A DNA stretch of 51,492 bases from Clostridia bacterium. Its GTDB lineage: Bacteria; Bacillota; Peptococcia; Peptococcales; BICA1-8. The position numbers and the translations under genes were made by a program. Below the pieces are notes generated by a model. That model was given only the letters and a program-made list of their open reading frames with translations. It searched no databases and was not told where the DNA came from. The stretch is taken from the NCBI GenBank assembly GCA_030154225.1, contig JASKKI010000009.1, forward strand, positions 1 through 51,492, in the 5' to 3' direction. This document shows positions 2,055 through 36,630 of this stretch, piece after piece (positions within the stretch are counted from its first letter, which is position 1; each line of letters opens with the position of its first letter).

Positions 2055-2642
2055 ATGAAAAATGAAATAAGAAAACATTTTAAAAACTTAAGAAACAGTC
2101 TTACTGAAAAGGAAGTTAAAGAAAAAAGCCTTGCTATTTTACAAACATTAACATCATACCCTTTCTGGCAGAATGCTAAACATATAATGTGTTATTTATC
2201 CTTTGGTAAGGAAGTTTATACTAAACCCATAATCGAAGAAGCTTGGAAAGCAAATAAACAGGTAGTAATACCTGTTTGTAAACGGGAGACATGTGATATT
2301 GAGCCCAGTCAACTTTTTTCATTTGCTGATCTTGAACCACGCACTATGGGAATCTTAGAACCTAAAGAAGGAAAACTAATGGAAGTTGACCCTAAAGTAA
2401 TTGATCTTTGCCTGATACCGGGATTAGCTTTTGACCTGATGGGTCATCGCATAGGCTTTGGAGCTGGCTATTATGATCGCTTTTTACCTTTATTGAGATC
2501 TGACACCCCCAAAGTAGCCCTGGCTTATGAATTACAAATTAGCCAGGAACCCCTCCCTTCTGAAAATTTTGACGTATTAATGGATTATATTTGCACAGAA
2601 AAGGGTCTTTACCAATCTACAACATTACTACAGGAGATTTAA
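2055..2642 (+). CDS. 5-formyltetrahydrofolate cyclo-ligase (MTHFS family)
   Basis: The product converts 5-formyl-THF to 5,10-methenyl-THF using ATP, feeding the cytoplasmic one-carbon pool. The protein is 195 aa, normal for the family. It shows the N-terminal basic helix (IRKHFKNLRNSL), the LCLIPGLAFD strand and the nucleotide/folate motif GFGAGYYDRFL near residues 133-143. The track begins at an upstream GTG (2043). I prefer ATG 2055, which follows GAGGTG. Its 3' end overlaps the end of the convergent radical SAM gene by 26 bp, with no terminator between them. Confidence 0.93.
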   Translation: MKNEIRKHFKNLRNSLTEKEVKEKSLAILQTLTSYPFWQNAKHIMCYLSFGKEVYTKPIIEEAWKANKQVVIPVCKRETCDIEPSQLFSFADLEPRTMGILEPKEGKLMEVDPKVIDLCLIPGLAFDLMGHRIGFGAGYYDRFLPLLRSDTPKVALAYELQISQEPLPSENFDVLMDYICTEKGLYQSTTLLQEI

Positions 2643-3942
2643 CAAATTGTTCTAATTTCCAGAATCCTGCACCTGTTAGATCCCTTTCCCCCATGTCAAA
2701 GGCTAGGGAAGGGACTAAAATTAAGTCTGGTGCAGGATTTTCTCTAACATAATTCTGATAGCTTTCTTTAAAATCTTCAATAGTTAACAAACCGGCACAC
2801 TGGATATTTCCACCAAAGTAATTGTTTTTAACAGGTACAATGTGCAAATTATTAATTTTAGCCAGACTTGTTTTTAAAAGATGATAACCTAATTGTGAAG
2901 CTAAAAGCAAAGGCCTTAACGGTTTCAATTTTGTCAATATACTTTTTATTTGCTCCACTTTACTTTTAGAGATATCATAATCAAAAACAAGACCACTTTT
3001 ATTATTTGTTATGTCTATGTTTAATACAATTACTTGTTTATCCCTTTCTATTTCCAGCATGTATTTTCCATTTTCCTGTAAAGTTAAAAATGCTTCCACC
3101 CTGGAAAAAGGCTTTTGGCCATTTATAGCAGTAATTATGTCTCCTGACCTTAGCCCTGCACGAAAAGCCGGACTCCCCTTTATTACCCCTATAATTTCTG
3201 CCTTTAAATCACTCAAATATGGGGGTTCTAATGTTATAGGGCAAAAATCTTTTCGCCATTTTATTATTTTTTCTTCCAGATGTTCCAACATTTTCTTATC
3301 TATCTGTAAATGAGAGGGTGCGAATTTAGTAAACCCCGGTTTAAATACCCTAATTGTCAGGGCATTATTACAACTTAAAGTTTTAATTGTATCATATAAA
3401 ACTGACCACCCCGTAATATGGGGCATAGCTACAATACTGCCATGATATTTAATATCCCATTTTTTTAATAATTCAGGTGCTTTATAAGCAATCATTGCCT
3501 TTTTATCATTCATTAATTTTTGCCGTAAATTTACATCATAGATGTTTAGTGATAGATTTAATTCTATGGGTTCAAATTTTTTTAGTATGTTTATGGTTTC
3601 TTCATTTAGATAAGAACCATTTGTTGTAATTTGAATTAGTGTCTGGGGAAACCTTTTTCTTAGTAATTCCAAAGATTCAAAAAAATACGGATGAGTAAAG
3701 GGCTCACCCTCCATAATTAAACTGGCTGACTCACCAATCACTATTTTCCTATTTTCATCAAGATAAGTAATAAGATCTTTTATAATATCCATTGCCAAGG
3801 GCGGTACATTTATAGCTTTAACACCAGGTGGATTTTGCCGATGACTACAAAAAAGACATCTAACATTACAAAATGAAGTAATAGGTAATATATTATAGTT
3901 TTGGACTGTATGGTATAGAACCTGCATTAACCTAGTATCCAT
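2617..3942 (-). CDS. Radical SAM protein with internal PDZ and DUF512-like C-terminus
   Basis: This is a 441-aa radical SAM enzyme of unknown reaction. The iron-sulfur motif is C-NVR-C-LF-C (Cys25, 29, 32), the CX3CX2C pattern that binds [4Fe-4S] and SAM, followed by GESASLIMEGEPFTHP. A PDZ-like segment (GSPAFRAGLRSGDIITAING) sits near residues 255-300. The C-terminus (NNYFGGNIQCAGLLTIEDF) resembles the DUF512 domain. Known DUF512 proteins have the order PDZ, radical SAM, DUF512; here the PDZ is in the middle. ATG 3942 follows GGAG at good spacing, while the track's TTG 3957 overlaps that site. It lies downstream of fixX across a repeat block. Confidence 0.8.
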   Translation of the reverse strand: MDTRLMQVLYHTVQNYNILPITSFCNVRCLFCSHRQNPPGVKAINVPPLAMDIIKDLITYLDENRKIVIGESASLIMEGEPFTHPYFFESLELLRKRFPQTLIQITTNGSYLNEETINILKKFEPIELNLSLNIYDVNLRQKLMNDKKAMIAYKAPELLKKWDIKYHGSIVAMPHITGWSVLYDTIKTLSCNNALTIRVFKPGFTKFAPSHLQIDKKMLEHLEEKIIKWRKDFCPITLEPPYLSDLKAEIIGVIKGSPAFRAGLRSGDIITAINGQKPFSRVEAFLTLQENGKYMLEIERDKQVIVLNIDITNNKSGLVFDYDISKSKVEQIKSILTKLKPLRPLLLASQLGYHLLKTSLAKINNLHIVPVKNNYFGGNIQCAGLLTIEDFKESYQNYVRENPAPDLILVPSLAFDMGERDLTGAGFWKLEQFVKSPVVML

Positions 3943-3960
3943 TATTTCACTCTCCAACGA

Positions 3961-4165: not shown

Positions 4166-4444
4166 CTATCCAAATTTATACTGAATCCCAAATCCCCCCC
4201 GGGGGTTACGCCAGTCAATAACATGAGGGGGACAGGCATACCTGCAAGTACCACATTCCACACACCCTTCATAGGCTGTTAAGATACGATTTTCTTCTTC
4301 ACTCCAGGCATAAACTTTAGCTGGGCAAACATAAGTACAGGGTTTATAGTCACATTTTAGACATTGATCCCTATCAACAATACGAATATGGCTGTGTTTA
4401 TCTGACTGATACCTATTTAAAAATAATTTATCTTCCAGTCTCAT
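4166..4444 (-). CDS. fixX: Ferredoxin-like protein FixX
   Basis: This small iron-sulfur protein (92 aa) of the FixABCX complex passes electrons from the FixAB flavins through FixC towards the quinone pool. Two cysteine groups are visible: CLKCDYKPCTYVCP and CVECGTCRYACP. The C-terminal NPRGGFGIQYKFG is typical of FixX. The track begins at 4459. ATG 4444 overlaps the fixC stop as ATGA and has GGAGGG seven bases upstream, so I use it; translation is probably coupled to fixC. It is the last gene of the fix operon. Confidence 0.92.
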   Translation of the reverse strand: MRLEDKLFLNRYQSDKHSHIRIVDRDQCLKCDYKPCTYVCPAKVYAWSEEENRILTAYEGCVECGTCRYACPPHVIDWRNPRGGFGIQYKFG

Positions 4445-5745
4445 CCTAAAACCCTCCATAACTTATAGAGATCTTTAACTAAATCCCACTTTGACCGTTG
4501 TTCAAATATCTTCCTCATGATGATCCTTTGTTTTTCTTTCTTAGGTATGTTATCTACAGTAAAAAATTCTTTACCTGCAATACTAGCCAGACGGGGATAC
4601 AAATAAAATAATTCTGGATGTTCTTCAAAGTACCCGGATGCATGCTGGTATTTTTGCAAGTCTTTGATTACAAAAGTTTCAGATAAACGCTGCTGGTATT
4701 CCGCTAAAGAGTTAATGGTGAAATCTCCTTTTTCAAAAGCTTTAGTTATTACCTCCCCCGCTACTTTCCCAGAAATTAGAGCCAGATTGGAACCCTCTCT
4801 ATGAAGTCCATTAACAAATTGGGCAGCATCCCCAACTATTACCACACCATTACCATACAGTTTAGGAATAGCTTTATAACCCCCTTCGGGAATCATATGG
4901 CCCAAATATTCCTTGATTTCTCCACCTTCTATTAGTGGCTTAACAGCTGGATGAGCTTTTAAATTTTCTAATAAATCATTAGGATTTAACTTTCTGTTAA
5001 TAAGATGGGACATTAAGGCCCCCACACCAATAGAAATACTTTCGTAATTGGTATAAATAAAGGCTGTACCCACCATTCCTTTAGTAGCTTCCCCGATAAT
5101 CTCAATAGTTGCACCCTGACCGTCTTCTAAACCAAACCGATCCTCAATTTTTTCCTTGGGTAAAGCTATTACTTCTTTGACTGCTACCGCCAGATAATCC
5201 CAGGCCAAGTAACCTTTCTGCATACCTAAAGCTTCTTGGGTCAACATGCTGTTTACACCTTCAGCGATTACTACAACATCTGCATAAACTTCCCCATTTG
5301 GACGTCCCGTTTTAACTCCAATTACTTTACCATCTTCCTTGATAATATCTTCTACCACTGTTTCACAAATGAGTAGTGCTCCGGCCTGTTCCACCTGCCG
5401 GCCCATCCAACGATCAAATTTAGCTCTTAACACAGTAAAAGCATTATAAGGTTCTATACCAAACTCCTGGGTCCGAAAGCCAATTTTAGAAACAGCCCCA
5501 TCGGTAGTAAACCAATAATTGGATTCTACCACTGGTCTTTCTAAAGGAGCTTCCTCCCAAAATTCAGGGAAAACATCTTCTGTTGCCCGGCGATAGAGCA
5601 CTCCACCCATTACATTTTTTGCTCCAGGGTATTCACCCCGTTCAAAAACAATAACCTTTAAACCATTATTAGCCATGGTATAGGCTGCAGACAGCCCAGC
5701 CGGACCTGCTCCCACAACAATAGCATCAAATTTTTCTTGAACCAT
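4441..5745 (-). CDS. fixC: FixC, flavoprotein-quinone oxidoreductase subunit
   Basis: This 434-aa FAD protein is homologous to electron-transfer-flavoprotein:quinone oxidoreductase. The dinucleotide-binding motif VVGAGPAGLSAAY is near residue 11, ERGEYPGAKNVMGG follows, and the second FAD motif GVVIVGDAAQFVNGLHREGSN lies near residue 300. In bifurcating FixABCX systems FixC carries electrons to menaquinone with FixX. ATG 5745 follows an AAGGGGGGATT site; the track start at 5787 would extend into fixB. fixB ends 13 bp upstream and fixX overlaps by 4 bp. Confidence 0.93.
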   Translation of the reverse strand: MVQEKFDAIVVGAGPAGLSAAYTMANNGLKVIVFERGEYPGAKNVMGGVLYRRATEDVFPEFWEEAPLERPVVESNYWFTTDGAVSKIGFRTQEFGIEPYNAFTVLRAKFDRWMGRQVEQAGALLICETVVEDIIKEDGKVIGVKTGRPNGEVYADVVVIAEGVNSMLTQEALGMQKGYLAWDYLAVAVKEVIALPKEKIEDRFGLEDGQGATIEIIGEATKGMVGTAFIYTNYESISIGVGALMSHLINRKLNPNDLLENLKAHPAVKPLIEGGEIKEYLGHMIPEGGYKAIPKLYGNGVVIVGDAAQFVNGLHREGSNLALISGKVAGEVITKAFEKGDFTINSLAEYQQRLSETFVIKDLQKYQHASGYFEEHPELFYLYPRLASIAGKEFFTVDNIPKKEKQRIIMRKIFEQRSKWDLVKDLYKLWRVLG

Positions 5746-5758
5746 AATAATCCCCCCC

Positions 5759-7006
5759 TTAAGACCCCAATTTCTGGCGGAAAACATCCGTCAGGAGGGG
5801 TAAAATTTTTTGATAATCTCCAACTATACCATAAGTAGCTATTTTAAAAATAGGTGCTTCTGGATCTTTATTAATGGCTACAATGACATCAGCTGTTTGC
5901 ATACCTACCAAATGTTGAATGGCTCCAGATATGCCTACCGCTATGTAAACTTTGGGCCTTACAGTAGCCCCAGTTTGCCCTACTTGATGGGCTACATCAA
6001 TCCACCCAGCTTCCACGGCAGCCCGGGATGCTCCAACAGTACCGCCTAAAACTTCTGCCAAGTCAAATATGTATTTAAAATTTTCTTTTGTTCCTATTCC
6101 CCTACCCCCGGCAACTATGATATCAGCCCGGTCTAAATAAACAGCACTACCACCTTGAGGTATAAATTCCAATATTTTAGTTAAAACATTTTCTTCTTTA
6201 ATATTAATTGTTTCTTCAATTAGAGTACCGCTACGCCCTTCTTCTTTATTAGGCATAGGCATAACTCTAGGTCGCACACTGGCCATTTGGGGCCGGTGGT
6301 TCCGGCAAACAATAGTTGCCATTACATTACCACCAAAAGCCGGTCTGGTCTGTAAAAGCAATCTGGACTCCTTTTCTATTTTCAATTCAGTACAATCAGC
6401 TGTTAATCCAGTACCAACTTTGGTAGCTACATGTCCGGCCAGATCCCGCCCTTGAGTAGTTGCTCCCATTAAAACAATTTCCGGTTTGTATTTTTCTATT
6501 AATATGGCCAGGGATTGGGAATAAGGTTCAGTACGATAATCTTTTAAAACAGGGTCATCGATTAAATAGACTTTATCAGCCCCATATTCAAATACAAGTT
6601 TGGCTTTATCCTTTATGTTGTGTCCTAATAATACACCACAAAGATCTACTCCCAACTCATCTGCTAACTTCCTTCCTGCACCTAAAAGCTCCCACGACAC
6701 ATCAGCTATTTCTCCATAGCTTTGTTCAATTAACACCCATACTCCGAAAAAAGCATTCACTTTTTCATCTTTGGGCTTGAATTCTTTTATTTTTTCTTCA
6801 GCTTTTTTTGGGGTTTCATCGGGTTTTCTTCTATCTTCCAGTGTTAGGGCCATTGTTGGACATACTCCTACACACGCGCCACAATCAGTACATTTCTCAG
6901 GATTGACTACAGCTATTCCATCTACTAAATCTAACGCATCAAATGGGCACGTTTGCACACACGCCCCACAACCTATACAATTCTTCTTGATTACTTCAAC
7001 GGTCAA
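5759..7006 (-). CDS. fixB: FixB / ETF alpha subunit with N-terminal 2x[4Fe-4S] ferredoxin
   Basis: This is the alpha subunit of an electron-transfer flavoprotein, 415 aa. Residues 1-60 form a ferredoxin domain with two CxxCxxCxxxCP motifs (CIGCGACVQTCP and CTDCGACVGVCP). ETF-alpha domain follows, with the C-terminal FAD-binding region QVGQTGATVRPKVYIAVGIS. The extra ferredoxin is known in some anaerobic ETFs and suggests an added electron wire. The start is TTG at 7006, eight bases after a strong AGGAGGT; there is no better ATG. It is separated from fixA by a 496-bp repeat-filled gap. Confidence 0.93.
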   Translation of the reverse strand: MTVEVIKKNCIGCGACVQTCPFDALDLVDGIAVVNPEKCTDCGACVGVCPTMALTLEDRRKPDETPKKAEEKIKEFKPKDEKVNAFFGVWVLIEQSYGEIADVSWELLGAGRKLADELGVDLCGVLLGHNIKDKAKLVFEYGADKVYLIDDPVLKDYRTEPYSQSLAILIEKYKPEIVLMGATTQGRDLAGHVATKVGTGLTADCTELKIEKESRLLLQTRPAFGGNVMATIVCRNHRPQMASVRPRVMPMPNKEEGRSGTLIEETINIKEENVLTKILEFIPQGGSAVYLDRADIIVAGGRGIGTKENFKYIFDLAEVLGGTVGASRAAVEAGWIDVAHQVGQTGATVRPKVYIAVGISGAIQHLVGMQTADVIVAINKDPEAPIFKIATYGIVGDYQKILPLLTDVFRQKLGS

Positions 7007-7027: not shown

Positions 7028-7497
7028 GCCTCTGGGTGAATATTCATAGACTGACAGTTGCTACTGGGCTAACATTTTGCGTCCGATTTACTTCTTAGTT
7101 AACATTACACGTCTGACATACTTCAAGGACAGCTTTTCTGTCTGACATTACTTTTGGGTGAACATATTACGTCTGACATATTTCGGAGTAAGATTACGCG
7201 TCTGATATACTTTAATGTGAACATAGTGCGTCTGATATACTTCAGAGTTAGTATTACGCGTCTGAAAAATGTGTGCAGGTGAATATTTTGTGTCAGACGT
7301 AAATGCTAGACTTGTGAGTAGTTGTCAGACGCAAAATGTTAGCTACCTGTTTTATCTGACCAACAAACTAAACCCTTAAGAAATTGTCTGACACAAAATT
7401 TTACGAAGAAGTATATCTGACCTTAAGCTAAACCCTTGAGTAGTTGTCAGACGCAAAAACTTGACCCTTAAGTATTTCTGACCAATTAGCTTATCCC
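7028..7497. repeat. GTCTGAC modular repeat block B (between fixA and fixB)
   Basis: This is the longest block. Positions 7050-7270 hold seven or eight tandem units of about 29-31 bp with consensus ATACTTC-GGGTTAACAT followed by TACGCGTCTGAC. From 7290 the units run inverted (GTCAGACGC, twice exact), alternating with AAACCCTTGAGTAGTT spacers. In the direction of fix transcription the inverted arm comes first, so this block is flipped relative to most others. It fills the whole gap and has no coding signal. Confidence 0.9.
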
Positions 7498-7502
7498 GCT
7501 AG

Positions 7503-8318
7503 CTAATTTGGTATTACATCTAAAGGAATAAGTTTATCAACCAATGTTTTAACAGCTTCTTCAGGTTTATCTTCACCACCGGGAATTATTTGGCCACCAC
7601 CTCTTCCGGGAGGTGCAAAAATATTCCGAACCATTGTTGGCGAACCTTTTAGCCCTAGTTTATCCGTCTCAAAATCCATCTGATTTTTATCCCAGATTTT
7701 ACACTCATAACGGGCAGCTCTAATCAAATTATCCAAACTGGCATATCTTAACTCATTTATATCTTTTACCACTGTTAATAATGCTGGGAAACGGGTTTCT
7801 GCTAATTCTTTACCGTTTTTAACTTTACGATATACTTGTATTTTTTTATTCGTTATATCTAAATTAACTATTTCCATAACATAGGTTAATTGAGGAATAT
7901 TCATTCTCGCTGCTATTCCTGGTCCTACCTGGGCAGTATCACCATCAATGGCTTGTTTTCCACATAACACTAAATCTACACCTTCTTGTACATTTAATTT
8001 TTCTATAGCCTTTGTTAAGACATAACTTGTAGCTAAGGTATCCGCCCCGGCAAAAGCTCTATCACTTAAAAGAATGGCTTCATCAACTCCAAAGCCAATA
8101 GCTTTTTTTAAGGCTTCCAAAGCCATAGAAGGGCCCATAGTTATTACAGTAACTTTTCCACCATATTTATCTTTTAATTGTAAAGCGGCCTCTATAGCAT
8201 GAATATCATAAGGATTAATAATTGCAGGAACACCTTCTCTAACCAAAGTATTTGTTTCGGGATCAATTTTAACTTCTGTTGTATCCGGAACTTGCTTCAT
8301 ACAAACTACATAATGCAT
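7503..8318 (-). CDS. fixA: FixA / ETF beta subunit
   Basis: This is the beta subunit of the electron-transfer flavoprotein, 271 aa, a normal length. The opening MHYVVCMKQVPDTTEVKID is the classical ETF-beta N-terminus. The AMP/FAD-binding strand DLVLCGKQAIDGDTAQVGP follows near residue 120. With FixB it would oxidise NADH or another donor; the full FixABCX set can bifurcate electrons to ferredoxin and quinone. ATG 8318 has GGAGGG upstream. It is first in the fix operon; an 18-bp palindrome and the DnaA-box cluster lie in its upstream region. Confidence 0.94.
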   Translation of the reverse strand: MHYVVCMKQVPDTTEVKIDPETNTLVREGVPAIINPYDIHAIEAALQLKDKYGGKVTVITMGPSMALEALKKAIGFGVDEAILLSDRAFAGADTLATSYVLTKAIEKLNVQEGVDLVLCGKQAIDGDTAQVGPGIAARMNIPQLTYVMEIVNLDITNKKIQVYRKVKNGKELAETRFPALLTVVKDINELRYASLDNLIRAARYECKIWDKNQMDFETDKLGLKGSPTMVRNIFAPPGRGGGQIIPGGEDKPEEAVKTLVDKLIPLDVIPN

Positions 8319-8378
8319 ATACTTCCCTCCTATATATATAATTTTTCTTCAATTTTGATAGTTTTATGTAGTAAAAAA

Positions 8379-8396
8379 GGTATATTTATTTATACC
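8379..8396. promoter_or_regulatory. Palindrome upstream of fixA
   Basis: GGTATA-TTTATT-TATACC is a perfect 6-bp inverted repeat about 60 bp ahead of the fixA start codon. Its size and place fit an operator for fixABCX, but the regulator is unknown and AT-rich palindromes can arise by chance. Confidence 0.35.
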
Positions 8397-8437
8397 CAGC
8401 ATATATTTTTATAAAACAACTGTTCCCAAATTTCCTG

Positions 8438-8607
8438 CTATCCACAGTATCCACAAATTTATCCACAGAAAAAACTTGAAAATTTCTCTAATCCCCCAGT
8501 TTTTCCACATTATCCACAAGGAAATGTGGCTTTTCCTGTGTAAAGAATTCCACATCCAAAAAACCCAATCTCATGGGTTATACACAGATTTATCCACATT
8601 ATCCACA
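8438..8607 (+). promoter_or_regulatory. DnaA-box cluster (5 perfect, 3 near-perfect boxes)
   Basis: Perfect TTATNCACA boxes start at 8459, 8510, 8578, 8590 and 8599. One-mismatch boxes start at 8438, 8447 and 8501, and a weaker one at 8613. All face the same way, and two pairs abut directly (8438/8447 and 8590/8599). The track ORF 8476-8673 is made of these boxes and is not a gene. The cluster lies between the 3' end of the xre gene and the upstream region of fixA. It may be a DnaA-titrating cluster, a DnaA-controlled promoter region or, less likely, an origin. Confidence 0.85.
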
Positions 8608-8697
8608 GAAAAAAATCCACAAAACACTTGTTCTTTTATTTTGTTAACTACTTTACTCCAAAACAAAATGTGACAATATTAGAACTTGACAAAAAAA

Positions 8698-8758
8698 ATC
8701 CAGGTTAATTAGTCCTGAATTTTTTTGCTAAAAAAGGCCTATATCTGTTTAGGTTTTT
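8698..8758. terminator. Tandem terminators after the xre gene
   Basis: The first hairpin (ATCCAGG, nine-base loop, CCTGAAT, 8698-8720) has T-rich tails on both strands. A second, weaker hairpin with CCTA/TAGG core and T tails lies at 8731-8758. Together they isolate xre from the DnaA-box/fixA region. Confidence 0.6.
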
Positions 8759-8766
8759 AGTCCTAT

Positions 8767-9153
8767 TTATTTGTTTTTATAAAGTATATTAATTAAAGCT
8801 TTCATATCATCTTCTGAAATATTCTTATCTTTTATTTCTTTAGCCAATTTTAAATAACCTATGTTTTCTTCCCTTAGAAGAAATGACTTTAAATCTTCAT
8901 CAAGTATATGGTAAAGAAAGATAGGAGTATCATTCCATCTGTTATCATCTATTAAAATACTTGGAGTAGATTCTAAAGCACTGGCTATTTTGTACAGGCT
9001 TTTTAAGGATGGAGTAGTTTTGTTATTTTCAACCAGGCTTATGTATTGCTGGCTTAAACCCGTCAATTCAGCCAAGTATGATGCTGATAAACCCTTTTGC
9101 ATCCGAACTTTTTTAATCCTTTCCCCAATTTTTATTTCTTTCAAGTTATCCAC
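8767..9153 (-). CDS. XRE-family (SinR-like) transcriptional regulator
   Basis: This 128-aa protein has an N-terminal helix-turn-helix of the Cro/CI type at about residues 8-65 (RIKKVRMQKGLSASYLAEL and GLSQQYISLVENNKTTPSL). The short C-terminal tail (about 60 residues) may dimerise, in the manner of SinR-type regulators. The track start is GTG 9153 with a poor site; TTG 9144, after GGGGTGG, is an alternative. It is divergent from a Spo0E-like gene, and the shared intergenic region holds an inverted repeat, so autoregulation and control of the Spo0E-like gene are likely. The target is inferred. Confidence 0.85.
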   Translation of the reverse strand: MDNLKEIKIGERIKKVRMQKGLSASYLAELTGLSQQYISLVENNKTTPSLKSLYKIASALESTPSILIDDNRWNDTPIFLYHILDEDLKSFLLREENIGYLKLAKEIKDKNISEDDMKALINILYKNK

Positions 9154-9158
9154 CCCAA

Positions 9159-9210
9159 ATTCTACAAGTATTACTAAAATAAATATTGCTATTCTACAAG
9201 TATTTCTTGT
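9159..9210. promoter_or_regulatory. Probable XRE operator: direct and inverted repeats
   Basis: ACAAG-TATTT-CTTGT (9196-9210) is a 15-bp inverted repeat. The 14-mer ATTCTACAAGTATT occurs at 9159-9172 and again at 9191-9204, 32 bp apart (three helical turns). This spacing and the position between divergent xre and spo0E-like genes suit cooperative repressor binding. Confidence 0.55.
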
Positions 9211-9215
9211 ATAAT
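9186..9215 (+). promoter_or_regulatory. Candidate promoter of the spo0E-like gene
   Basis: TTGCTA (9186-9191), an 18-bp spacer and a perfect TATAAT (9210-9215) precede the spo0E-like gene. The inverted repeat occupies the spacer, where a bound repressor would block RNA polymerase. Confidence 0.5.
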
Positions 9216-9299
9216 ATTACATATCTTTTAAATATTAACATTAATATTTACTTCAAATTGCAAAACCTATTGTCTGGTTATTTATAAGGAGCTAAAAAT

Positions 9300-9482
9300 A
9301 TGAAAAAAAGTATCCAGTTATTAAAAGAAATTGAGCTTTTACGAAGTCAATTACACAAGGTTATTGAACTGGTAGACGGTAATTTAATTTCAGAAGATGT
9401 CATACAAATAAGCCAAAAACTTGACCAACTATTAGTAGAATACTTAAAGACTATCAAGGAAGAGAAAGAAAAACCTTTTTAA
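9300..9482 (+). CDS. Spo0E-like aspartyl-phosphate phosphatase
   Basis: This is a 60-aa protein of the Spo0E family, which dephosphorylates Spo0A~P and so delays sporulation. The length fits, and the family signature SQKLDQLLVEY (Ser38 to Tyr48) is clear, preceded by a helix of the type IELLRSQLHKVIEL. It has a good AAGGAG site eight bases before ATG. It is divergent from an XRE regulator and stands alone on the plus strand. A Spo0F-like protein is encoded 4.5 kb away. No Spo0A is seen in this window. Confidence 0.88.
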   Translation: MKKSIQLLKEIELLRSQLHKVIELVDGNLISEDVIQISQKLDQLLVEYLKTIKEEKEKPF

Positions 9483-9581
9483 TTATATCAAAATATTATT
9501 ATTCAACTAATAATTAGTAAATTTATTTACAATTATAACACATGGTTTCACTATTATATTTCAAGTGTTTTATTTAAACAA

Positions 9582-9605
9582 AAATAGGACTCAATTGTCC
9601 TATTT
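9582..9605 (-). terminator. Terminator of the histidinol-phosphatase gene
   Basis: AAATAGGAC - 6-base loop - GTCCTATTT, followed on the minus strand by TTTTTGTTT. The stop codon of the PHP gene lies inside the stem. Confidence 0.75.
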
Positions 9606-10397
9606 AAAACTAATTAGTTGAGGTTTTCCTTTTTCAAAAGTCCAGATACCCCTAAACCCTAATTCCCTAGCAATTTGTATTCCTTTATCTAAATCCTGAC
9701 CTAATTGCTGTAAGTGATGGGCATCTGAACCTATGGTAATAATCTCTCCACCTAATTCCCGGTACCATTTTAAAATATCTATTGTCGGTAGTGGTTCACC
9801 TAGACCCTGTCTATATCCTGAAGTATTTATTTCTATACCTTTGGAATTGTTAATTACATTTTTTAAAATTTCTCTAATTATTTCTTCATAATCTCTTGCC
9901 GTAAACTTTTGAAAATGTCTCGGTACATATCTTTTTAAAACATCTAAATGACCCAAGACATGAAAATCACCATTTTTAGCTGTTTCTAATACTTCATTAA
10001 AATACTTAAAATATACATCTCTATCTTCTTCATCATTGTAAGTACGATGTAAAACCTGGTTACCTACATAATGAATCGAACCGAGAAAAAAGTCAAAATC
10101 TTTATCTTTTAAAAAATCAGAATGTTGTTTTTGATAGAGATGCGGTTCTCCCAATTCCAAACCTTTTTTTATAGATAACTTCTTCCTAAATTTTTCTCTA
10201 CATTCCTCTATTTCTTGGGAGTATTTACTAAAGTTAAAATGACCTAATCCTTGATCAAAGGGATTAAGATCAAAATGTTCAGTAAAAACAACCTCTTTTA
10301 AACCAAGTTCTACCGCCCTCTGGCAATAATCAATCATTTTTACTTTACTATCAAAAGAATTATTAGTATGTATATGATAATCAACTAAGTAGTTCAT
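9600..10397 (-). CDS. hisJ: Histidinol-phosphatase, PHP family (HisJ type)
   Basis: This 265-aa metal-dependent phosphatase probably removes phosphate from L-histidinol phosphate in histidine synthesis. PHP motifs are visible: VDYHIHTNNSFD near residue 4, FTEHFD near 39, GSIHYV, HLDVLKRY and GSDAHH near 230. No other his gene is next to it, so another phosphoester substrate cannot be excluded. ATG 10397 follows GGAGGT; the track's GTG 10409 precedes that site. A repeat block separates it from tsaD. Confidence 0.82.
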   Translation of the reverse strand: MNYLVDYHIHTNNSFDSKVKMIDYCQRAVELGLKEVVFTEHFDLNPFDQGLGHFNFSKYSQEIEECREKFRKKLSIKKGLELGEPHLYQKQHSDFLKDKDFDFFLGSIHYVGNQVLHRTYNDEEDRDVYFKYFNEVLETAKNGDFHVLGHLDVLKRYVPRHFQKFTARDYEEIIREILKNVINNSKGIEINTSGYRQGLGEPLPTIDILKWYRELGGEIITIGSDAHHLQQLGQDLDKGIQIARELGFRGIWTFEKGKPQLISFK

Positions 10398-10439
10398 TGT
10401 GACCTCCACATCGCTTTTAGGGTAATTTTATTGTTAGAC

Positions 10440-10681
10440 AATGGCTTACAAGCCCAGACTATTTGGTTAGATATACCAAGTAGTTAACTTATTGTGTCAG
10501 ACAAAGCTAAAGTGCTAGGCTTTTTGGTTAGTCGTACCAAGTAGCTAACATTTTTCGTCTAACACAAGCTTAAAGCTAGATTTCTAGGTTTTTTCCGGGC
10601 ACTGAGCACTGGGCACTGGGCACGTTCTTTTGTCAGACGCAGAATGTTAGCCCAGAAATATTGTCGGACGGAATATATTCA
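10440..10681. repeat. GTCTGAC modular repeat block C (tsaD 3' end)
   Basis: Reading with transcription, the block has two units of ACTTC-GGGTGAACAT...GCGTCTGAC, then the centre CGTGCCCAGTGCCCAGTG, then about four inverted units with GTTAGACG or TCTGACAC variants. It begins inside the last codons of tsaD, and that gene's TGA is part of the first unit. Confidence 0.87.
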
Positions 10682-11713
10682 CCCGGAAGTATAATCACTA
10701 AACTTCAGGTTGGGAACTGCATTTAAATTCAACCCGGCAAATTCTCCTCTTAGCACCTTATAGTGGGCGGCGGCACCAATCATAGCAGCATTATCAGTAC
10801 AATACTTCATTGGTGGATAAACTAATCTGAAACCCTTTTCCTCTGCTCTTAAGGATAATCTTGTCCGTAATACACTATTAGCTGCTACTCCACCTGCCAG
10901 TAAAATTGTTTTTACTTTTTCTTTCACTGCCGCTCCTACAGTTTTTTCTACTAAAACTTCTACAACAGCTTCCTGAAAACTGGCCGCTATATCAGCCTTA
11001 TTAATGGGTATATTTTTCATTTCGCATTGATTAAGATAATTTAAAACAGCAGATTTAAGACCGCTAAAACTAAAATCATAACTTCCTTCCTCAAGCCAAG
11101 CCCGGGGTAAATTAACAGCTTTAGGGTTACCTTCTTTGGCTTTTAATTCAATCTTAGGACCTCCCGGATAACCCAAACCTAGAGCCCGGGAAATTTTATC
11201 AAAAGCCTCCCCGGCAGCATCATCTCTAGTTTGTCCCAAAAATTCATATTTACCGTGTTCCAATATTTTTATCAGAGTAGTATGTCCACCCGATACTATT
11301 AAGCAGACCACTGGAAATTCAATATCACTATGGGTAAGGAAGTTTGCATAAACATGTCCCTCAATATGATGAACACCAATCAGCGGTTTTTCGGCGGCAA
11401 AGGACATAGCTTTAGTAGTAGCAACTCCCACTAGTAAAGCCCCTACCAATCCCGGACCATAAGTAACTGCAAAATGAGTTAAATCGGGAATTTTTAAATT
11501 AGCTTTATTTAAGGCTTCCTCTATAATTATATTAATAAGTTCTAAATGCTTACGGGATGCCACCTCTGGTACAACCCCACCAAATTTTTGGTGGGTAGAG
11601 ATTTGTGAAGCGACAACATCAGCTAAAACCTCTTTCCCGTCTTTAACTATGGCGACAGCAGTTTCATCACAGCTGGTCTCAACTGCTAGTATAATTGTTT
11701 TATCCAAATACAT
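10679..11713 (-). CDS. tsaD: tRNA N6-threonylcarbamoyladenosine transferase TsaD
   Basis: This is the catalytic subunit of t6A modification at A37 of ANN-decoding tRNAs. It moves the threonylcarbamoyl group from TC-AMP to tRNA together with TsaB and TsaE. Family features include ILAVETSCDETA, GGVVPEVASRKH, the metal motif HHIEGHVYANF, VSGGHTTL and LLAGGVAANSVLR. From ATG 11713 it is 344 aa. The track's ATG 11734 lacks a good site, and a TTG at 11707 with GGGGGTG upstream is also possible. The C-terminal YTSG plus stop appears to come from the adjoining repeat. Confidence 0.95.
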   Translation of the reverse strand: MYLDKTIILAVETSCDETAVAIVKDGKEVLADVVASQISTHQKFGGVVPEVASRKHLELINIIIEEALNKANLKIPDLTHFAVTYGPGLVGALLVGVATTKAMSFAAEKPLIGVHHIEGHVYANFLTHSDIEFPVVCLIVSGGHTTLIKILEHGKYEFLGQTRDDAAGEAFDKISRALGLGYPGGPKIELKAKEGNPKAVNLPRAWLEEGSYDFSFSGLKSAVLNYLNQCEMKNIPINKADIAASFQEAVVEVLVEKTVGAAVKEKVKTILLAGGVAANSVLRTRLSLRAEEKGFRLVYPPMKYCTDNAAMIGAAAHYKVLRGEFAGLNLNAVPNLKFSDYTSG

Positions 11714-11739
11714 CACCCCCACATAAGAACTCATTGACC

Positions 11740-11949
11740 AGAATTACAAGCTTTTAAGCTAGACCAATGGGTCAGACGTACCAGGCAACTAACATATTGC
11801 GTCTGACACAAGCTTACTGGGCACGGATTTTGTCAGACGGGATATCTTCGCCTTTTAGCAATTGTCAGGCGCAAGATGTTCACCCTGAAGTATGTCGGAC
11901 GCTCAATGTTCACCTGTTAGCATATTAAACACATAATGTTCATCCAGAA
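11740..11949. repeat. GTCTGAC modular repeat block D (rimI 3' end)
   Basis: With transcription the order is four GGGTGAACAT-type units, the centre CCGTGCCCAGTAAGCTTGTG, then inverted units with GTCAGACGC. It starts within the last codons of rimI (GCTTCTGGATGAACAT holds the TGA) and ends just before tsaD. Confidence 0.87.
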
Positions 11950-12425
11950 GCCTTTTCCCGCAAGTCTTTCCACATAATAACTGCATCTTCATTAGCATCT
12001 ACGTAATAACCTTTGCGGAGCCCTGCTGCTTTAAATCCTAAACGTTCATAGAGCTTTCGGGCACTGGTATTAGAAACCCTTACTTCCAGGGTTATCCTTT
12101 CTGCACCTTTTTTCAAGGCCATTTCCATCAGATTTTGTAAAAGTATTTCACCCAATCGCTTCCCCCGGTGTTCAGGAGCAATTGCAATATTAGTAATATG
12201 GGCTTCGTCTAAAATAACCCACATTCCCCCATAGCCTATTATTTTATCCTGGTCATCTTTGGGAATTACTACTAAATAGTAGGCAAAATTATTATCTAGA
12301 ATTTCACAACTAAAAGCATAGGGTGACCAGGGAGTAGGAAAAGATAGTTTTTCAATTTCGACAACTTGAGGGACATCTCCTAACTCCATTTTTCTTAAAA
12401 GAACTTTGGAGCTTATCTCTGACAT
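11940..12425 (-). CDS. rimI: Ribosomal-protein S18 N-acetyltransferase RimI (GNAT)
   Basis: This GNAT acetyltransferase (161 aa) probably acetylates the N-terminus of ribosomal protein S18 or another target. The acetyl-CoA motif is visible in ITNIAIAPEHRGKRLGEILLQ, followed by LEVRVSNTSARKLYERLGF. It sits in the usual tsaE-tsaB-rimI-tsaD order. ATG 12425 has GGGAGG eight bases upstream and overlaps the end of tsaB by 13 bp; the track start 12440 lies before that site. The final Ser-Gly-stop looks repeat-derived. Confidence 0.9.
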   Translation of the reverse strand: MSEISSKVLLRKMELGDVPQVVEIEKLSFPTPWSPYAFSCEILDNNFAYYLVVIPKDDQDKIIGYGGMWVILDEAHITNIAIAPEHRGKRLGEILLQNLMEMALKKGAERITLEVRVSNTSARKLYERLGFKAAGLRKGYYVDANEDAVIMWKDLREKASG

Positions 12426-13120
12426 CTTGCTGCCTCCCATTTTATTTCCGCTTCTGATTTTCTTAAATAAAATGGTTCCAGTGCAAATAGATCATTTTCC
12501 TGCCCTTTTTCTAATTGTTTAAGGCCTAACACTGCTACAGAAGCTGCCCTGGGTAAAAGATTATTTAAAGGAGCCCAGAGAGCTTTATTTAAAAGTTTAG
12601 AATTGATTACTTCTTTATATTCAAAAACCCCGTCACCAAGAAAGGTAACAGGTTTTTCTTGAATACTTAATTCTTCCGCAAGTTTTTCTGGACTTATGGC
12701 AAGATAGTCACTGATGCGAATCAGATCATTATCATGCATTTCATAAAGAGCTGTATAAACTTCTTGCTTTCTAGCATTAAGAATGGGGCAAATAATTCCG
12801 GGAATACCAAAAAGATTTTGAGCCAAAGCGTCTAAAGTTGGAATTCCAATTAATTTAATTCCAGTTACTTGAGCTAAACTTTTAGCTGTGGCTAAGCCAA
12901 TTCTCAATCCTGTAAATGACCCCGGACCCTTAGTAACAGCAATTCCCGTTACATCCTTAAGCCTTAATCTGGCTAAATCTAATGTTTGTTTTATTAAAGG
13001 CAGTAACTGCTCCGAGTGGGTGTAACCGGTATTTAAAAAATTTTCCACCCAGATTTTTTCCTTATCAACAATAGCTACTCCCGCTACCGGCGTAGAACTA
13101 TCTATGCTTAGTATAATCAT
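12413..13120 (-). CDS. tsaB: t6A complex scaffold protein TsaB
   Basis: TsaB (235 aa) is an ASKHA-fold paralogue of TsaD that forms its scaffold in t6A synthesis. The sequence shows IILSIDSSTPVAGVAIVD at the start and the family signature VTKGPGSFTGLRIGLATAKS near residue 63. It overlaps tsaE by 23 bp and rimI by 13 bp, so translation is probably coupled. Confidence 0.94.
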   Translation of the reverse strand: MIILSIDSSTPVAGVAIVDKEKIWVENFLNTGYTHSEQLLPLIKQTLDLARLRLKDVTGIAVTKGPGSFTGLRIGLATAKSLAQVTGIKLIGIPTLDALAQNLFGIPGIICPILNARKQEVYTALYEMHDNDLIRISDYLAISPEKLAEELSIQEKPVTFLGDGVFEYKEVINSKLLNKALWAPLNNLLPRAASVAVLGLKQLEKGQENDLFALEPFYLRKSEAEIKWEAARCQR

Positions 13121-13574
13121 AACCGGTCAACTCCTCTACTAACCTTTCATAATGCTCTCCCCGGGGATAAAAACAAATTTCTCTTCCTTCAGGATTTTGT
13201 TTAAATTCCAAAACTAGAAATTCAGAAGGAAAAATATCGACAATTAAATTCCCCCATTCCACAAGGGTAATACCTTTTCCGTAGAAATACTCTTCATAAC
13301 CTAATTCTTCCATTTCATTTATAGAATTAAGTCTATATACATCCAGATGATAAATAGGTAATCTCCCGTCATGATATTCATGAATAATTGTAAAGGTAGG
13401 ACTAGTTATATTTTCTTCTACTCCCATTCCTTTGGCAACTCCCTTAACAAAGACCGTTTTCCCAGCACCTAACTCTCCATTCAGGGAAATAAAGTCACCA
13501 GGTCTAAGAAATTTTGCCATTCTTTGGCCGATATATTCTGTTTCTTCCGGATTTTTTGTTATTAGACAAACCAA
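13098..13574 (-). CDS. tsaE: t6A ATPase TsaE
   Basis: This is the small ATPase (158 aa) that powers cycling of the TsaBD complex. The Walker A motif GELGAGKT is at residues 34-41, and TSPTFTIIHEY and LVEWGN are typical. The start is TTG 13574, placed nine bases after AAGGAGG; no ATG is available near the site. It is the first gene of tsaE-tsaB-rimI-tsaD. Confidence 0.93.
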   Translation of the reverse strand: MVCLITKNPEETEYIGQRMAKFLRPGDFISLNGELGAGKTVFVKGVAKGMGVEENITSPTFTIIHEYHDGRLPIYHLDVYRLNSINEMEELGYEEYFYGKGITLVEWGNLIVDIFPSEFLVLEFKQNPEGREICFYPRGEHYERLVEELTGYDYTKHR

Positions 13575-30010: not shown

Positions 30011-31240
30011 ATTCTTCCCTACTGATTGAGTTTCTGGTTTTTCTTCTAAATGTTTAATCTCTACTTTTAGTTTAACCGGTTCTATTTTTAATACCTGAAT
30101 ATCACTAGGTGCATCAACCTGTACTTCTAGTTCATGTGTCCCTAACTCTAAACCGGAAACATCTACAAAAGCTTGAAAATCTTTAGGTAACAACTTTTCA
30201 ACTATTTCTTTTTTCCCTTCAATTTTAATTTTTACAGTTTCTGAAGCTAATACTACTTTTTGAGTGCTTTTATTGTTATGAATATTTACCGGCAAATCAA
30301 AGTTCATCTGCACTGCCCCTTCTTCTATTTGGATCATTACCTTAACTTTAGTTCCATATAACAAAGTAACACCTGAGGGAACACTTAAATCGACTTCTTT
30401 AATAATATCTTCTTTAGCATCGGTTAAAGATATAGGTAAAGTTTGTACACGATCGATAGTATCTAATTTATTAAAATGACCTAAAATTTTCACAGTTTCA
30501 GGTTCTACCAGTATTCTAGTAATTTGATAACCTTGAGCCGGTGTTCCTTCAAAAATAGGCTTAACCGGGACAGTCTTACTGGGGGTATCTTGTATTATGG
30601 GAATAAAAACTTCAACTGTATTGGGTATAATATTCAAAGAGTCGGGGCCATACCAATTTCCCCAGCGGTCTTGGATTTTAATAGGTAGGTTTAAAACTAA
30701 GTTTGATTGAGCATTATTTAGATTCACATCAGCCCTTGCTTCAACTAGATTCTCTAGAATATTCCTGGGACCCCTGATAACAACTTGAGAAGGTTTTACT
30801 GAAGCTTTAAAGCTGGAATAACCATGTGCCGTTTGCCCTAGTAAGGCAACTTTTACAGGAACCTGTTTTTCGGAAATTTTATCTACATTAACCTTTACCT
30901 CTTTAGGAGATATTTCTACAATTTCAACACCTAAAGGATTTACTATTTTTACAGGTAGAGACTGCTCACCCATCTTTACTTGGGATAAATCAACACTTGC
31001 TTTGAAATCTTTTAAACCCAAGCTGTTAATTATTTTTTGGTCTCCGCGAATTTTAACGTTAACGGAATTCCCTTTAGAAGTAAGAGTCAAATCATCCCTC
31101 AAATTATCGTAATTTACAGTTAAATTCAGTGTCTTTTCTATAGGAGGATTTTGATCCGCTGAAACATAGAGCCACAGTAATATAGCAAGTAAAATTGCAA
31201 TCATTTTATAAATCAAATTATCTTTCCATGTTTCTCCCAT
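30005..31240 (-). CDS. cdaR: CdaA regulator CdaR (YbbR-domain protein)
   Basis: This 411-aa membrane-anchored protein controls the diadenylate cyclase CdaA. One N-terminal membrane helix (IYKMIAILLAILLWLYVSA) is followed by about four YbbR repeats with motifs such as VNVKIRGDQKIINSL and QVVIRGPRNILENL, on the outer face. It begins 3 bp after cdaA. The last codons (AAT ACT TAA) fit the repeat consensus, so the C-terminus was probably trimmed or extended by block H. Confidence 0.92.
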   Translation of the reverse strand: MGETWKDNLIYKMIAILLAILLWLYVSADQNPPIEKTLNLTVNYDNLRDDLTLTSKGNSVNVKIRGDQKIINSLGLKDFKASVDLSQVKMGEQSLPVKIVNPLGVEIVEISPKEVKVNVDKISEKQVPVKVALLGQTAHGYSSFKASVKPSQVVIRGPRNILENLVEARADVNLNNAQSNLVLNLPIKIQDRWGNWYGPDSLNIIPNTVEVFIPIIQDTPSKTVPVKPIFEGTPAQGYQITRILVEPETVKILGHFNKLDTIDRVQTLPISLTDAKEDIIKEVDLSVPSGVTLLYGTKVKVMIQIEEGAVQMNFDLPVNIHNNKSTQKVVLASETVKIKIEGKKEIVEKLLPKDFQAFVDVSGLELGTHELEVQVDAPSDIQVLKIEPVKLKVEIKHLEEKPETQSVGKNT

Positions 31241-31243
31241 TAG

Positions 31244-32044
31244 TTAAGACCTCCAGTTCCAGAAATGGGTAGATTTTTGCTGTGGCTCAATTCTATTTAG
31301 CAATAACTCTTTTAAAGTAATCTCATCTAAATAACGGGTAAGCTTTCCATCTTCTGCAACGGAAATAACGCCGGTTTCTTCAGAAACCATCACAACAAGA
31401 GCATCGGAAACTTCAGTTACACCCACAGCAGCCCGGTGCCTTGTTCCCAGTTCTTTACTAAGATTAGGGTTTTCTGATAATGGTAAAAAGCAACTTGCTG
31501 CAAGCAAACGATCTCCTCTAATGATTACGGCTCCATCATGTAAAGGAGTTTTAGGAACAAAGGTATTAATTAATAGTTCACTGGTAACAAATCCATCTAT
31601 TTTTATACCGGTTTCAACAAAATCGGCTAACCCTGTTTGTCTTTCAATAACTACCAGAGCACCTATTTTTTTCTTGGCCATTACTTTAATAGCCCTAACA
31701 ATTTCATTGACTAACTTGTCTACATCTTCTTGGGCTAAATAGCCTGACCGGACGAATAGTTTACCCCTTCCTAACTGTTCTAAAGCTCTGCGCAATTCCG
31801 GCTGAAAAACGATAGGAATAGCAATAAAAAATACGGTTTGTGCTTTTTCTAAAAGCCAATTAATGGATTTAAGTCCTAAAATTTCACTAGCTACAGTAGC
31901 AATTAAAAGGACAACTAAACCTTTTATTAACTGGACCGCCCGTGTTCCTTTTAAAATCATCATTAATTTATAAATAACGAAAGCTACTATGGCTATATCC
32001 AATAAGTTTATGGGATTCAGTATTTTTAAAAACTGGTCAAACAA
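31244..32044 (-). CDS. cdaA: Diadenylate cyclase CdaA
   Basis: The enzyme makes the second messenger c-di-AMP from two ATP. It is 266 aa, with about three N-terminal membrane helices (residues 13-80) and a DAC domain. The catalytic DGA is at residues 170-172 (LHDGAVII) and RHR at 202-204 (LGTRHRAAVG). The start is TTG 32044, seven bases after AAAGGTGG. It leads the cdaA-cdaR-glmM operon, linking c-di-AMP with wall precursors. Confidence 0.95.
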   Translation of the reverse strand: MFDQFLKILNPINLLDIAIVAFVIYKLMMILKGTRAVQLIKGLVVLLIATVASEILGLKSINWLLEKAQTVFFIAIPIVFQPELRRALEQLGRGKLFVRSGYLAQEDVDKLVNEIVRAIKVMAKKKIGALVVIERQTGLADFVETGIKIDGFVTSELLINTFVPKTPLHDGAVIIRGDRLLAASCFLPLSENPNLSKELGTRHRAAVGVTEVSDALVVMVSEETGVISVAEDGKLTRYLDEITLKELLLNRIEPQQKSTHFWNWRS

Positions 32045-32384
32045 GGCGGCACCACCTTTCTGTTATTTAAATTCAATATATTTTTCGATAATTTAGATAA
32101 AAAACCCTGTTTTTCCTTGGTAAGAACCAAAAAAAATTTACTTATGTAAGATTGATTACTTAAACAAAAAATTATCTGCTAAACATTTTTCCTTTGTAAT
32201 AGTAATAGTTACATTTATTCAATTTTAGTTTCCAATAAATGTACTATCAACTATTTTACCATTTACCATCGTTTCTCTTTGTTATTATTTTGACAGCATC
32301 TTATATCTTTTAATTATATCAGTCTATGCTATAATATAGTGAAGGATTGGTATAGATTAATTCATGTAAAAGGGGTAGCTAACA
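32045..32384. promoter_or_regulatory. Divergent intergenic region cdaA / DUF881
   Basis: This 340-bp AT-rich spacer must hold the promoters of both divergent operons. A perfect TATAAT at 32330-32335 serves the plus-strand DUF881 gene, though no good -35 stands at the right distance; a TTGACA at 32291 is too far. I see no repeat units, riboswitch or ORF. Confidence 0.45.
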
Positions 32385-33101
32385 GTGAGAAAATGGGTAT
32401 TACCAATTACTATAGTATGTATTATATCCGGTTTATTATTATCTTTACAATTTAAAGCACAGGCTTCACTGTCTTCTAACCCGATAGGTCAAAGAAATAA
32501 AGCTTTAGTTGAGCTCATCCAAAACTTAGAACAAGAAATTGTTAAATATCAAAATGAGTTAACATCTTTACGGGAAGAACTAGAAAATATAGAAAATAAT
32601 AAAGCCAGCGGGCAAGAAGATATCCAAAAACTACAACAAAAAGTCCAAAAAGCAAAGCTTAAAGCCGGTTTATTGTCTGTAAAAGGCAGGGGTATTAAAA
32701 TTATTTTAGATGATAATAAAGCAGGACTTAATGCTAACCCCAATGATGATCCTAACCGTTATATCATTCATTATGAAAATATCCTTAATATTATTACCGA
32801 ATTAAAATTAGGTAGAGCTGAAGCGATCAGTATTAATGGTCAAAGAATTGTTACTCCATCAGAGATTAGGTGTGTAGGAAATGTTATTTTAGTTAATACT
32901 ACCCGGCTAGCACCTCCTTTTGAAATATCTGCTATTGGAAATCCTGATTTTCTGGAGGAGGTCTTAATATCGGGCGAATATGACCTATTAAAAGGCGCCG
33001 GTTTTCCAGTGAGTTATACCAAGTATACAAAGGAAAATCCCTTAGAAATTCCTGCATATACAGGAACCTTTCAATTTAATTATGTGAAAATAAATGAGTA
33101 G
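32385..33101 (+). CDS. DUF881 family membrane-anchored protein (first copy)
   Basis: This 238-aa protein has an N-terminal signal-anchor (LPITIVCIISGLLLSLQF) and a coiled coil (about residues 45-95, QEIVKYQNELTSLREELENI). The DUF881 domain follows, with VKGRGIKIILDD and AEAISINGQRIV. Family members (YlxW/YlxX type) usually lie near division genes of Firmicutes; their role is not established. The start is GTG 32385 after AAAGGGG. sbp and a second DUF881 gene follow. Confidence 0.85.
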   Translation: MRKWVLPITIVCIISGLLLSLQFKAQASLSSNPIGQRNKALVELIQNLEQEIVKYQNELTSLREELENIENNKASGQEDIQKLQQKVQKAKLKAGLLSVKGRGIKIILDDNKAGLNANPNDDPNRYIIHYENILNIITELKLGRAEAISINGQRIVTPSEIRCVGNVILVNTTRLAPPFEISAIGNPDFLEEVLISGEYDLLKGAGFPVSYTKYTKENPLEIPAYTGTFQFNYVKINE

Positions 33102-33109
33102 GTGATATT

Positions 33110-33472
33110 ATGTGGCTTCCACTATTAGGATTACTTTTTGGCGCCATTATCGGTTCGGCAATATCATTTCAAATCCCACTTATCTATGCTAAATATATGT
33201 CAGTTGCTGTACTTGCCTCTTTAGACTCCGTATTTGGTGGTGTAAAGAGTGTCTTGGAAGAAACATTTGATGGAACTATCTTGTTAACGGGATTTTTTAC
33301 CAATACTTTGCTTGCTGCACTACTGGCTTATTTAGGAGATAGATTAGGTGTTGACCTTTATCTGGCTGCCGTATTTGCCTTTGGAGTAAGGTTATTCCAA
33401 AATTTAGCTACTATCAGGCATTATTTATTATGTAGAAGCTTGAAAAATTACAAAGGCTGCCCTAGGAAATAA
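33110..33472 (+). CDS. sbp: Small basic protein (DUF1290, Sbp family)
   Basis: This is a 120-aa membrane protein with three predicted helices (LPLLGLLFGAIIGSAISFQI, TGFFTNTLLAALLAYL, LYLAAVFAFGVRLF). FQIPLIYAKYMSVAVLASLDSVFGG is the family signature. The family lies beside DUF881 genes in many Firmicutes, often next to ftsA/ftsZ. It begins 8 bp after the first DUF881 gene. The C-terminal tail (LKNYKGCPRK) is basic. Confidence 0.88.
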   Translation: MWLPLLGLLFGAIIGSAISFQIPLIYAKYMSVAVLASLDSVFGGVKSVLEETFDGTILLTGFFTNTLLAALLAYLGDRLGVDLYLAAVFAFGVRLFQNLATIRHYLLCRSLKNYKGCPRK

Positions 33473-33499
33473 CCTGCTGGGTAAATTTATTGGGTTAGA

Positions 33500-33790
33500 A
33501 AATACTTCTGGGTGGACATAATGCATCCGACAAACCCGTGCCCAGTATTCTTGTCTCAGACGCAAAAATTAAACTACTTGGTACGTCAGACCAGGAAGCT
33601 AAACCCTTAAGAAATTGTCTGACAAAAAATTTTACGAAGAAGTATATCTGACCCTTAAGCTAACCCTTGAGTAGTTGTCAGACGCAAAAGATTGGCTGCC
33701 TGGTATGTCTGACCCACTAGTCTAGCTTTGCAGCCGTGTCAGACGCAAAAATTTTTACTACTTGGTACATCAGAGCCCAGAAGTTATCTT
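33500..33790. repeat. GTCTGAC modular repeat block I (plus-strand operon)
   Basis: This is the only block in a plus-strand operon, and its sequence is flipped with it: AATACTTCTGGGTGGACATA comes first, then the centre ACCCGTGCCCAGTATTCTTG, then about five arm-2 units with GTCAGACGC at about 33677 and 33737. Its orientation therefore follows the transcript rather than the chromosome. Confidence 0.9.
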
Positions 33791-33817
33791 CTTGGATATT
33801 GAAAGTTGGTGATACAA

Positions 33818-34510
33818 ATGCAAAAAAAGAGCTGGCAACTTCCCATTACTATAGTATTAGTTTTTCTAGGCATTTTATTGTCCGCCCAACTCCAAACTCA
33901 AACCCGGGTCCTTTCTGACCTCTCCATGCAAAAAACCGAAGATTTAATAACTATGGTTAGAAATCTTACTGAAAAAAGATTTCAGTTGGAAAAAGAATTA
34001 GAAGATATTGAAGGTAAACTCATTGCTCTTAAAAATTCTAATTCAGATGAACTTAATATTATAAATAATCTTAGAGCAGAATTAAATAAATTGGAAATTA
34101 TTAATGGTACAAAAGAAGTAAAAGGTCCAGGACTAAAGGTTATAATCAGTAAAGATTCGCCCATACTTTATATTGATATTGTTAGCATTATAAATGAGCT
34201 CTGGGCTGCAGGAGCAGAAGCAATTTCTGTTAATGACACTAGAATTGATTACAGTACTGTTTTCTTTTACACAGAAACTGAAAATTCTATGTTTATAACT
34301 TTAAACCATAAACCTTTAACTTTCCCCATAATTATTAAAGCAATTGGTAACCCCAATACTTTAGAAAAAGGTCTAACTTTACCGGGAGGTATTATTGATA
34401 ATTTAGCTTTATTCCGTGCTTATCCCTATTTAGAACAGGAAGAAGAAATAATCATCCCACCAATAGAAAATGAACTTGTCTTATTAGAAGCAGAATTAGT
34501 TAGAAAATAA
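33818..34510 (+). CDS. DUF881 family membrane-anchored protein (second copy)
   Basis: This 230-aa paralogue of the first DUF881 protein starts with an almost identical anchor (QLPITIVLVFLGILLSAQL). It has a coiled coil (about 40-95), VKGPGLKVIISKD and GAEAISVNDTRIDYST. The DUF881 part is shorter and diverged. ATG 33818 is preferred over the track's TTG 33806. The usual tandem with sbp is kept, but repeat block I now divides it. Confidence 0.85.
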   Translation: MQKKSWQLPITIVLVFLGILLSAQLQTQTRVLSDLSMQKTEDLITMVRNLTEKRFQLEKELEDIEGKLIALKNSNSDELNIINNLRAELNKLEIINGTKEVKGPGLKVIISKDSPILYIDIVSIINELWAAGAEAISVNDTRIDYSTVFFYTETENSMFITLNHKPLTFPIIIKAIGNPNTLEKGLTLPGGIIDNLALFRAYPYLEQEEEIIIPPIENELVLLEAELVRK

Positions 34511-34534
34511 AGCTTCACCACTGGGTGAAGCTTC
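34511..34534. terminator. Terminator between convergent genes
   Basis: AAGCTTCACC-ACTG-GGTGAAGCTT. On the minus strand it is followed by TTATTTTCT, suiting the 602-aa gene. On the plus strand the tail is poor. Confidence 0.7.
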
Positions 34535-34542
34535 TCAAGATT

Positions 34543-36610: not shown

Positions 36611-36630
36611 AAAAACCGACTTCGTCGGTC
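36611..36630 (-). terminator. Second terminator, short GC stem
   Basis: On the minus strand ACCGAC-GAA-GTCGGT is followed by TTTTTCTTAC. It backs up the terminator at 36725. Confidence 0.6.

Follow-up and report, generated by a model that had tools for sequence, protein, structure and literature searches.

The stretch of DNA analysed here (the window, 51,492 nucleotides) is contig C103 of the genome of a Clostridia bacterium, which spans 2.68 Mb in 126 contigs. An array of DnaA boxes lies in it between the fixABCX genes and the tsaE-tsaB-rimI-tsaD operon (Table 1). Five perfect TTATNCACA boxes on the plus strand (8459, 8510, 8578, 8590 and 8599) are accompanied on the same strand by three boxes with one mismatch (CTATCCACA at 8438, GTATCCACA at 8447 and TTTTCCACA at 8501), as a first-pass annotation of the sequence had reported; it had counted two abutting pairs, and there are in fact three (8438/8447, 8501/8510 and 8590/8599). 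The last of these is the single abutting pair of perfect boxes in the whole genome (8590-8607). The minus strand of the array shows two weak DnaA boxes, at 8537 and 8539. The density is beyond chance, as had been claimed: five perfect same-strand boxes fall in 170 bp, and among 400 copies of the window simulated with a first-order Markov model, none had a 170-bp stretch with more than two. A search of positions 7400-9700 for RNA elements returned one Rfam match at chance level, and none beyond it.

Table 1. Features at and around the DnaA-box array (window coordinates)
Feature	Position	Strand	Remarks
Radical-SAM/PDZ/DUF512 protein	2617..3957	-	directly after the array in genome G004
fixB, fixC, fixX	4166..7006	-	
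fixA/etfB	7503..8318	-	first gene of fixABCX; incidental neighbour
DnaA-box array	8438..8607	+	5 perfect and 3 one-mismatch boxes, unidirectional, opposite to tsaD
Sub-array 1	8438..8467	+	boxes 8438, 8447, 8459; spacing 9 then 12
Sub-array 2	8501..8518	+	boxes 8501 and 8510, abutting
Terminator-like hairpin and T run	8562..8579	- (tsaD/fixA strand)	within the array
Sub-array 3	8578..8607	+	30-bp conserved module TTATACACA-GAT-TTATCCACA-TTATCCACA; spacing 12 then 9
Weak box AAATCCACA	8613..8621	+	two mismatches
XRE-type HTH regulator	8767..9153	-	between array and PHP-domain gene, on the tsaD side
PHP-domain protein	9600..10409	-	between tsaD and array
tsaD (gcp)	10679..11734	-	anchor gene; array begins ~2.07 kb past its stop
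rimI-like acetyltransferase, tsaB, tsaE	11940..13574	-	remainder of the conserved operon

A search for the module of sub-array 3, as TTATNCACA-N3-TTATNCACATTATNCACA, gave a single match in each of 14 genomes among the 46 of the class, none of them on the contig that carries dnaA, and no match with the reversed control. In eight of these 14 genomes, tsaD is followed by the module at a distance of 0.1-2.2 kb; fixA adjoins the array in only three of those class members (G000, G001 and G002), and also at locus L006, and is absent from its side in the other five (G004, G005, G026, G031 and G034). The constant neighbour of the array is tsaD, not fixA. The order in G004 is tsaD, array, DUF512 radical-SAM gene and 5-FTHF cyclo-ligase gene, and the same last two genes stand in the window beyond fixABCX, so that fixABCX looks like an insertion that came to adjoin the array in close relatives only. 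The XRE-type regulator was not found at this position between array and tsaD among the class relatives examined. In genomes of families f3 and f11 the module lies away from tsaD; in f3 (L040-L042) it sits between thioredoxin and UPF0029/YigZ genes, as if relocated. A further element, AATGTGGTTTT, noticed by eye in members of the class, was discarded as a general feature because only two of 55 arrays contain it.

The same association extends over the phylum, which we call Bacillota from the named members of the group. With TsaD mapped in 300 Bacillota genomes, 80 loci were taken blind to the presence of boxes, and 46 of them show a strong cluster downstream of tsaD. When eight module-bearing loci, the window included, are added (88 loci), clusters scoring at least 3 occur between -150 and +2800 of the tsaD stop at 54 loci from 40 families, and nowhere else within 6 kb of tsaD. 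In this set, the first 500 bp after the tsaD stop hold 148 perfect boxes on the opposite strand, whereas no 500-bp bin beyond the 0 to +3 kb zone holds more than 8 in total. Abutting perfect pairs, searched for across whole genomes, occur in 142 of the 300, against a single match for the pattern read backward; of the 105 pairs listed for genomes whose tsaD was also listed, 53 lie at most 3 kb downstream of this gene, all 53 on the opposite strand. The array stands as close as +4 of tsaD in Carboxydothermus islandicus, was not found at the tsaD locus of a Pelosinus MAG, and is missing from a substantial minority of Bacillota tsaD loci, as well as from all 37 non-Bacillota tsaD loci sampled. On a TsaD tree, one clade of 58 rows comprises 48 with a strong array, 8 with a weak one and 2 with none, and the array label changes 18 times over the tree against a mean of 31.8 after shuffling, hence far more clustered; as this tree is built on one gene and several of its deep branches are weak, we claim no exact point of origin for the array. 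The array is ancient, and the majority of sampled Bacillota lineages carry it just downstream of tsaD.

The genes that follow the array vary among dozens of families. They include radical-SAM DUF512-like, lgt-like, 5-FTHF cyclo-ligase-like, murC-like, nuoE-like and RidA-like genes and fixA, with names mostly taken from reading the sequences; by the same kind of judgement, the radical-SAM/DUF512 gene seems to come next in several families besides that of G004. In some genomes the array lies between convergent genes. Elsewhere in the genomes, comFC-like, fliS or hpf-like genes adjoin 24 of the 44 non-tsaD loci with an abutting pair. This second recurrent locus (among L190-L227, e.g. L198, L199, L201, L206 and L213) has two to four perfect boxes and lies between those genes and hpf/secA or an amino-acid ABC transporter; it was not found as a perfect pair in the genome of the window. 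Two more loci (L214 and L210, in G187 and G297) carry dense, mostly one-way arrays of six perfect boxes in other contexts.

The tsaD arrays share a strict geometry. Their boxes are nearly always oriented against tsaD, and distances between same-strand boxes peak at 9, 12, 21, 32, 42-44 and 52-54 bp, whereas the classes of 16, 18-19, 27-29, 39, 41 and 49-50 bp are empty. These peaks correspond to a helical repeat of ~10.5 bp, which is what DnaA assembly along a single face of the DNA would give. A second motif shared by 55 arrays was not found: A/T tracts alone were enriched, and the idea of an additional conserved motif or an IHF-like partner site was abandoned for this reason. On the tsaD strand, 31 of the 55 arrays carry terminator-like hairpins, compared with 26% of the control segments; such hairpins would perhaps shield the array from transcription. 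Most arrays in complete genomes are found 0.15-0.55 of a replichore away from dnaA (one is at 0.70). In all 14 complete genomes that have an array, tsaD runs in the same direction as the replication fork, which means that the boxes point against the fork.

Densely packed DnaA boxes between genes, in AT-rich DNA, could be taken for a replication origin. The first-pass annotation had argued against the main origin, and with reason, because the GC skew is negative on both sides of the array (from position 1 to ~31 kb, with no reversal at 8.4 kb), and dnaA and oriC are on another contig. (Farther on, at 31000-41000, the skew weakens and several plus-strand open reading frames appear, unlike in the remaining window.) The only other concentration of boxes in this genome surrounds dnaA on contig C6, where dnaA is preceded by six perfect boxes, on both strands, and followed by further ones before the next gene begins; this is the true bipartite oriC of the B. 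subtilis type, with boxes of mixed orientation. Of the usual marks of an oriC, namely a GC-skew switch, adjacent dnaA/dnaN genes and a DnaA-trio element, none is found at the array. With a simple scan, in which several oriC regions also scored low, no more than two consecutive DnaA-trios follow the boxes in any of the 55 tsaD arrays, against up to six at oriC. The array and oriC share the box consensus and coexist in one genome, but their geometry differs: across 19 oriC regions neighbouring boxes are on the same or the opposite strand in 32 and 35 cases and abut in only 4 pairs, whereas the tsaD arrays give 128 and 17 cases and 84 abutting pairs. At oriC, boxes of mixed orientation seldom abut and often precede DnaA-trios; those of the tsaD array are one-way, abutting and trio-free. 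Skew, trio scan and geometry thus reject the array as a main or secondary origin, and that it might be a secondary, dormant or former one is very improbable.

A closer parallel is found in B. subtilis, where gcp is the older name of tsaD, and where the cluster at gcp was reportedly among the six deleted by Okumura in 2012. Like the array of the window, the gcp/ydiF cluster lies downstream of tsaD/gcp, away from oriC, with about ten sites, a likeness that rests on gene order and on the published description. Its layout, with tsaD and an ABC-F (ydiF-like) gene convergent on an array between them, recurs at L110, L111, L092 and L127, and at L221 the order is ydiF-like gene, array, one gene and tsaD. 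The window differs in that its array is separated from tsaD by 2 kb carrying the XRE and PHP genes and has fixA instead of ydiF on its far side. Moreover, DnaA binding has been measured in B. subtilis, whereas the window array is known from its sequence. In B. subtilis, DnaA binds in vitro to ten sites downstream of gcp and ydiF (region 4), with a Kd of 0.15 uM for ATP-DnaA and 0.33 uM for ADP-DnaA, and at 55 nM the recovery of this DNA was 16-fold higher with ATP-DnaA than with ADP-DnaA (PMC4447404). Removal of six clusters outside oriC leads to early initiation, according to two reviews (PMC5295017, PMC13220808), and the effect is described in the first of them as a combined one, strong only when all six are removed (PMC5295017).

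The first-pass annotation had offered two functions, a DnaA-titrating cluster or a DnaA-controlled promoter of fixA; the former is the best supported, with a close positional match to gcp/ydiF, and the latter is disfavoured. The boxes of the window are clustered in non-coding DNA, outside oriC and downstream of tsaD/gcp, as in a DnaA-box cluster (DBC). The array is probably a DnaA-titrating DBC anchored to tsaD across the phylum, the counterpart by position of gcp/ydiF in B. subtilis, which much of Bacillota has inherited together with the tsaE-tsaB-rimI-tsaD operon. We infer that ATP-DnaA would bind the array cooperatively along one face of the DNA, and that DnaA held in this way, away from oriC, would make initiation wait until enough of the protein has been made. 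Since the array lies part-way down the replichore in complete genomes, the fork reaches and copies it a while after initiation, and its second copy would offer fresh binding capacity and delay re-initiation. None of this would involve fixA, and a single array may contribute little.

The promoter reading holds that DnaA bound to the array controls the adjoining gene, here fixA, and so couples electron-transfer metabolism to the replication status. DnaA is indeed a known transcription factor, with some B. subtilis clusters at promoters such as that of sda (PMC4447404), the window array ends ~120 bp before fixA, and in 45 of the 55 arrays the next gene is oriented with the boxes upstream of it. 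However, the five class members with an array and no adjoining fixA, together with the wide variety of downstream genes, make a fixA promoter fail as a general function, and we reject any other gene-specific promoter on the same grounds. The convergent ABC-F gene of four loci and the terminator-like hairpin inside the array also speak against it, as does, with the little weight of a consensus scan, the lack of a promoter-like match on the fixA strand at 8319-8437. We therefore consider this reading unlikely, and an effect on the transcription of the gene after the array, fixA included, may exist as a side effect.

A more active role, in which the array would stimulate ATP hydrolysis by bound DnaA, like E. 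coli datA, or reactivate DnaA, like DARS, instead of simply titrating it, agrees with conserved, directional and phased boxes and with the strong preference of the B. subtilis counterpart for ATP-DnaA. Like the array, datA is a non-coding cluster of DnaA boxes outside oriC, and it lowers the availability of DnaA. Yet datA acts mainly by ATP hydrolysis and needs an IHF site between its boxes, together with boxes 2, 7 and 3, whereas the 55 arrays share no motif other than the boxes and no conserved IHF-type site was seen in them (IHF sites being degenerate); their gene context is also different, and B. subtilis lacks IHF, as well as Hda and SeqA, according to a 2026 review (PMC13220808). A datA- or DARS-like site seems an improbable alternative to titration. 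As for a short, functionless sequence that was duplicated locally in tandem, boxes do abut in places as duplicates would, but position, orientation and helical spacing remain constant over dozens of families with differing spacers, which leaves this explanation a nearly negligible probability.

DnaA-box clusters as such are already known, and it is the conservation of this one beside tsaD across the phylum that appears to be undescribed. In the literature searched, which leaves subscription papers outside, there is no description of a phylum-wide fixation beside tsaD, of a common orientation or of phasing; DnaA boxes and tsaD never occur together in it, and gcp, ydiF and DnaA do so only in PMC4447404. 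A more speculative proposal, which we hold tentatively and at somewhat below even chances, is that the tsaD-linked array could be an ancestral replication-timing element of Bacillota. On this view, a DnaA platform of phased boxes in a single direction would have stayed beside one gene through most of the phylum's history; it would face the oncoming fork, moderately far from oriC in relative terms, and its crossing by the replisome would form part of the initiation clock. With the second array at comFC/fliD-fliS, it might form a conserved set with a role like that of datA plus DARS in E. coli.

The reviews consulted treat the B. subtilis clusters as a minor detail, and one of 2017 even states that clusters with significant regulatory roles had not been identified in this species (PMC5295017). 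If a cluster is fixed beside tsaD across dozens of families, with its orientation and helical phase unchanged, titration of the initiator would be a general and ancient form of control in Bacillota. The tsaD array would also give experimenters one site that can be deleted or moved in many tractable species.
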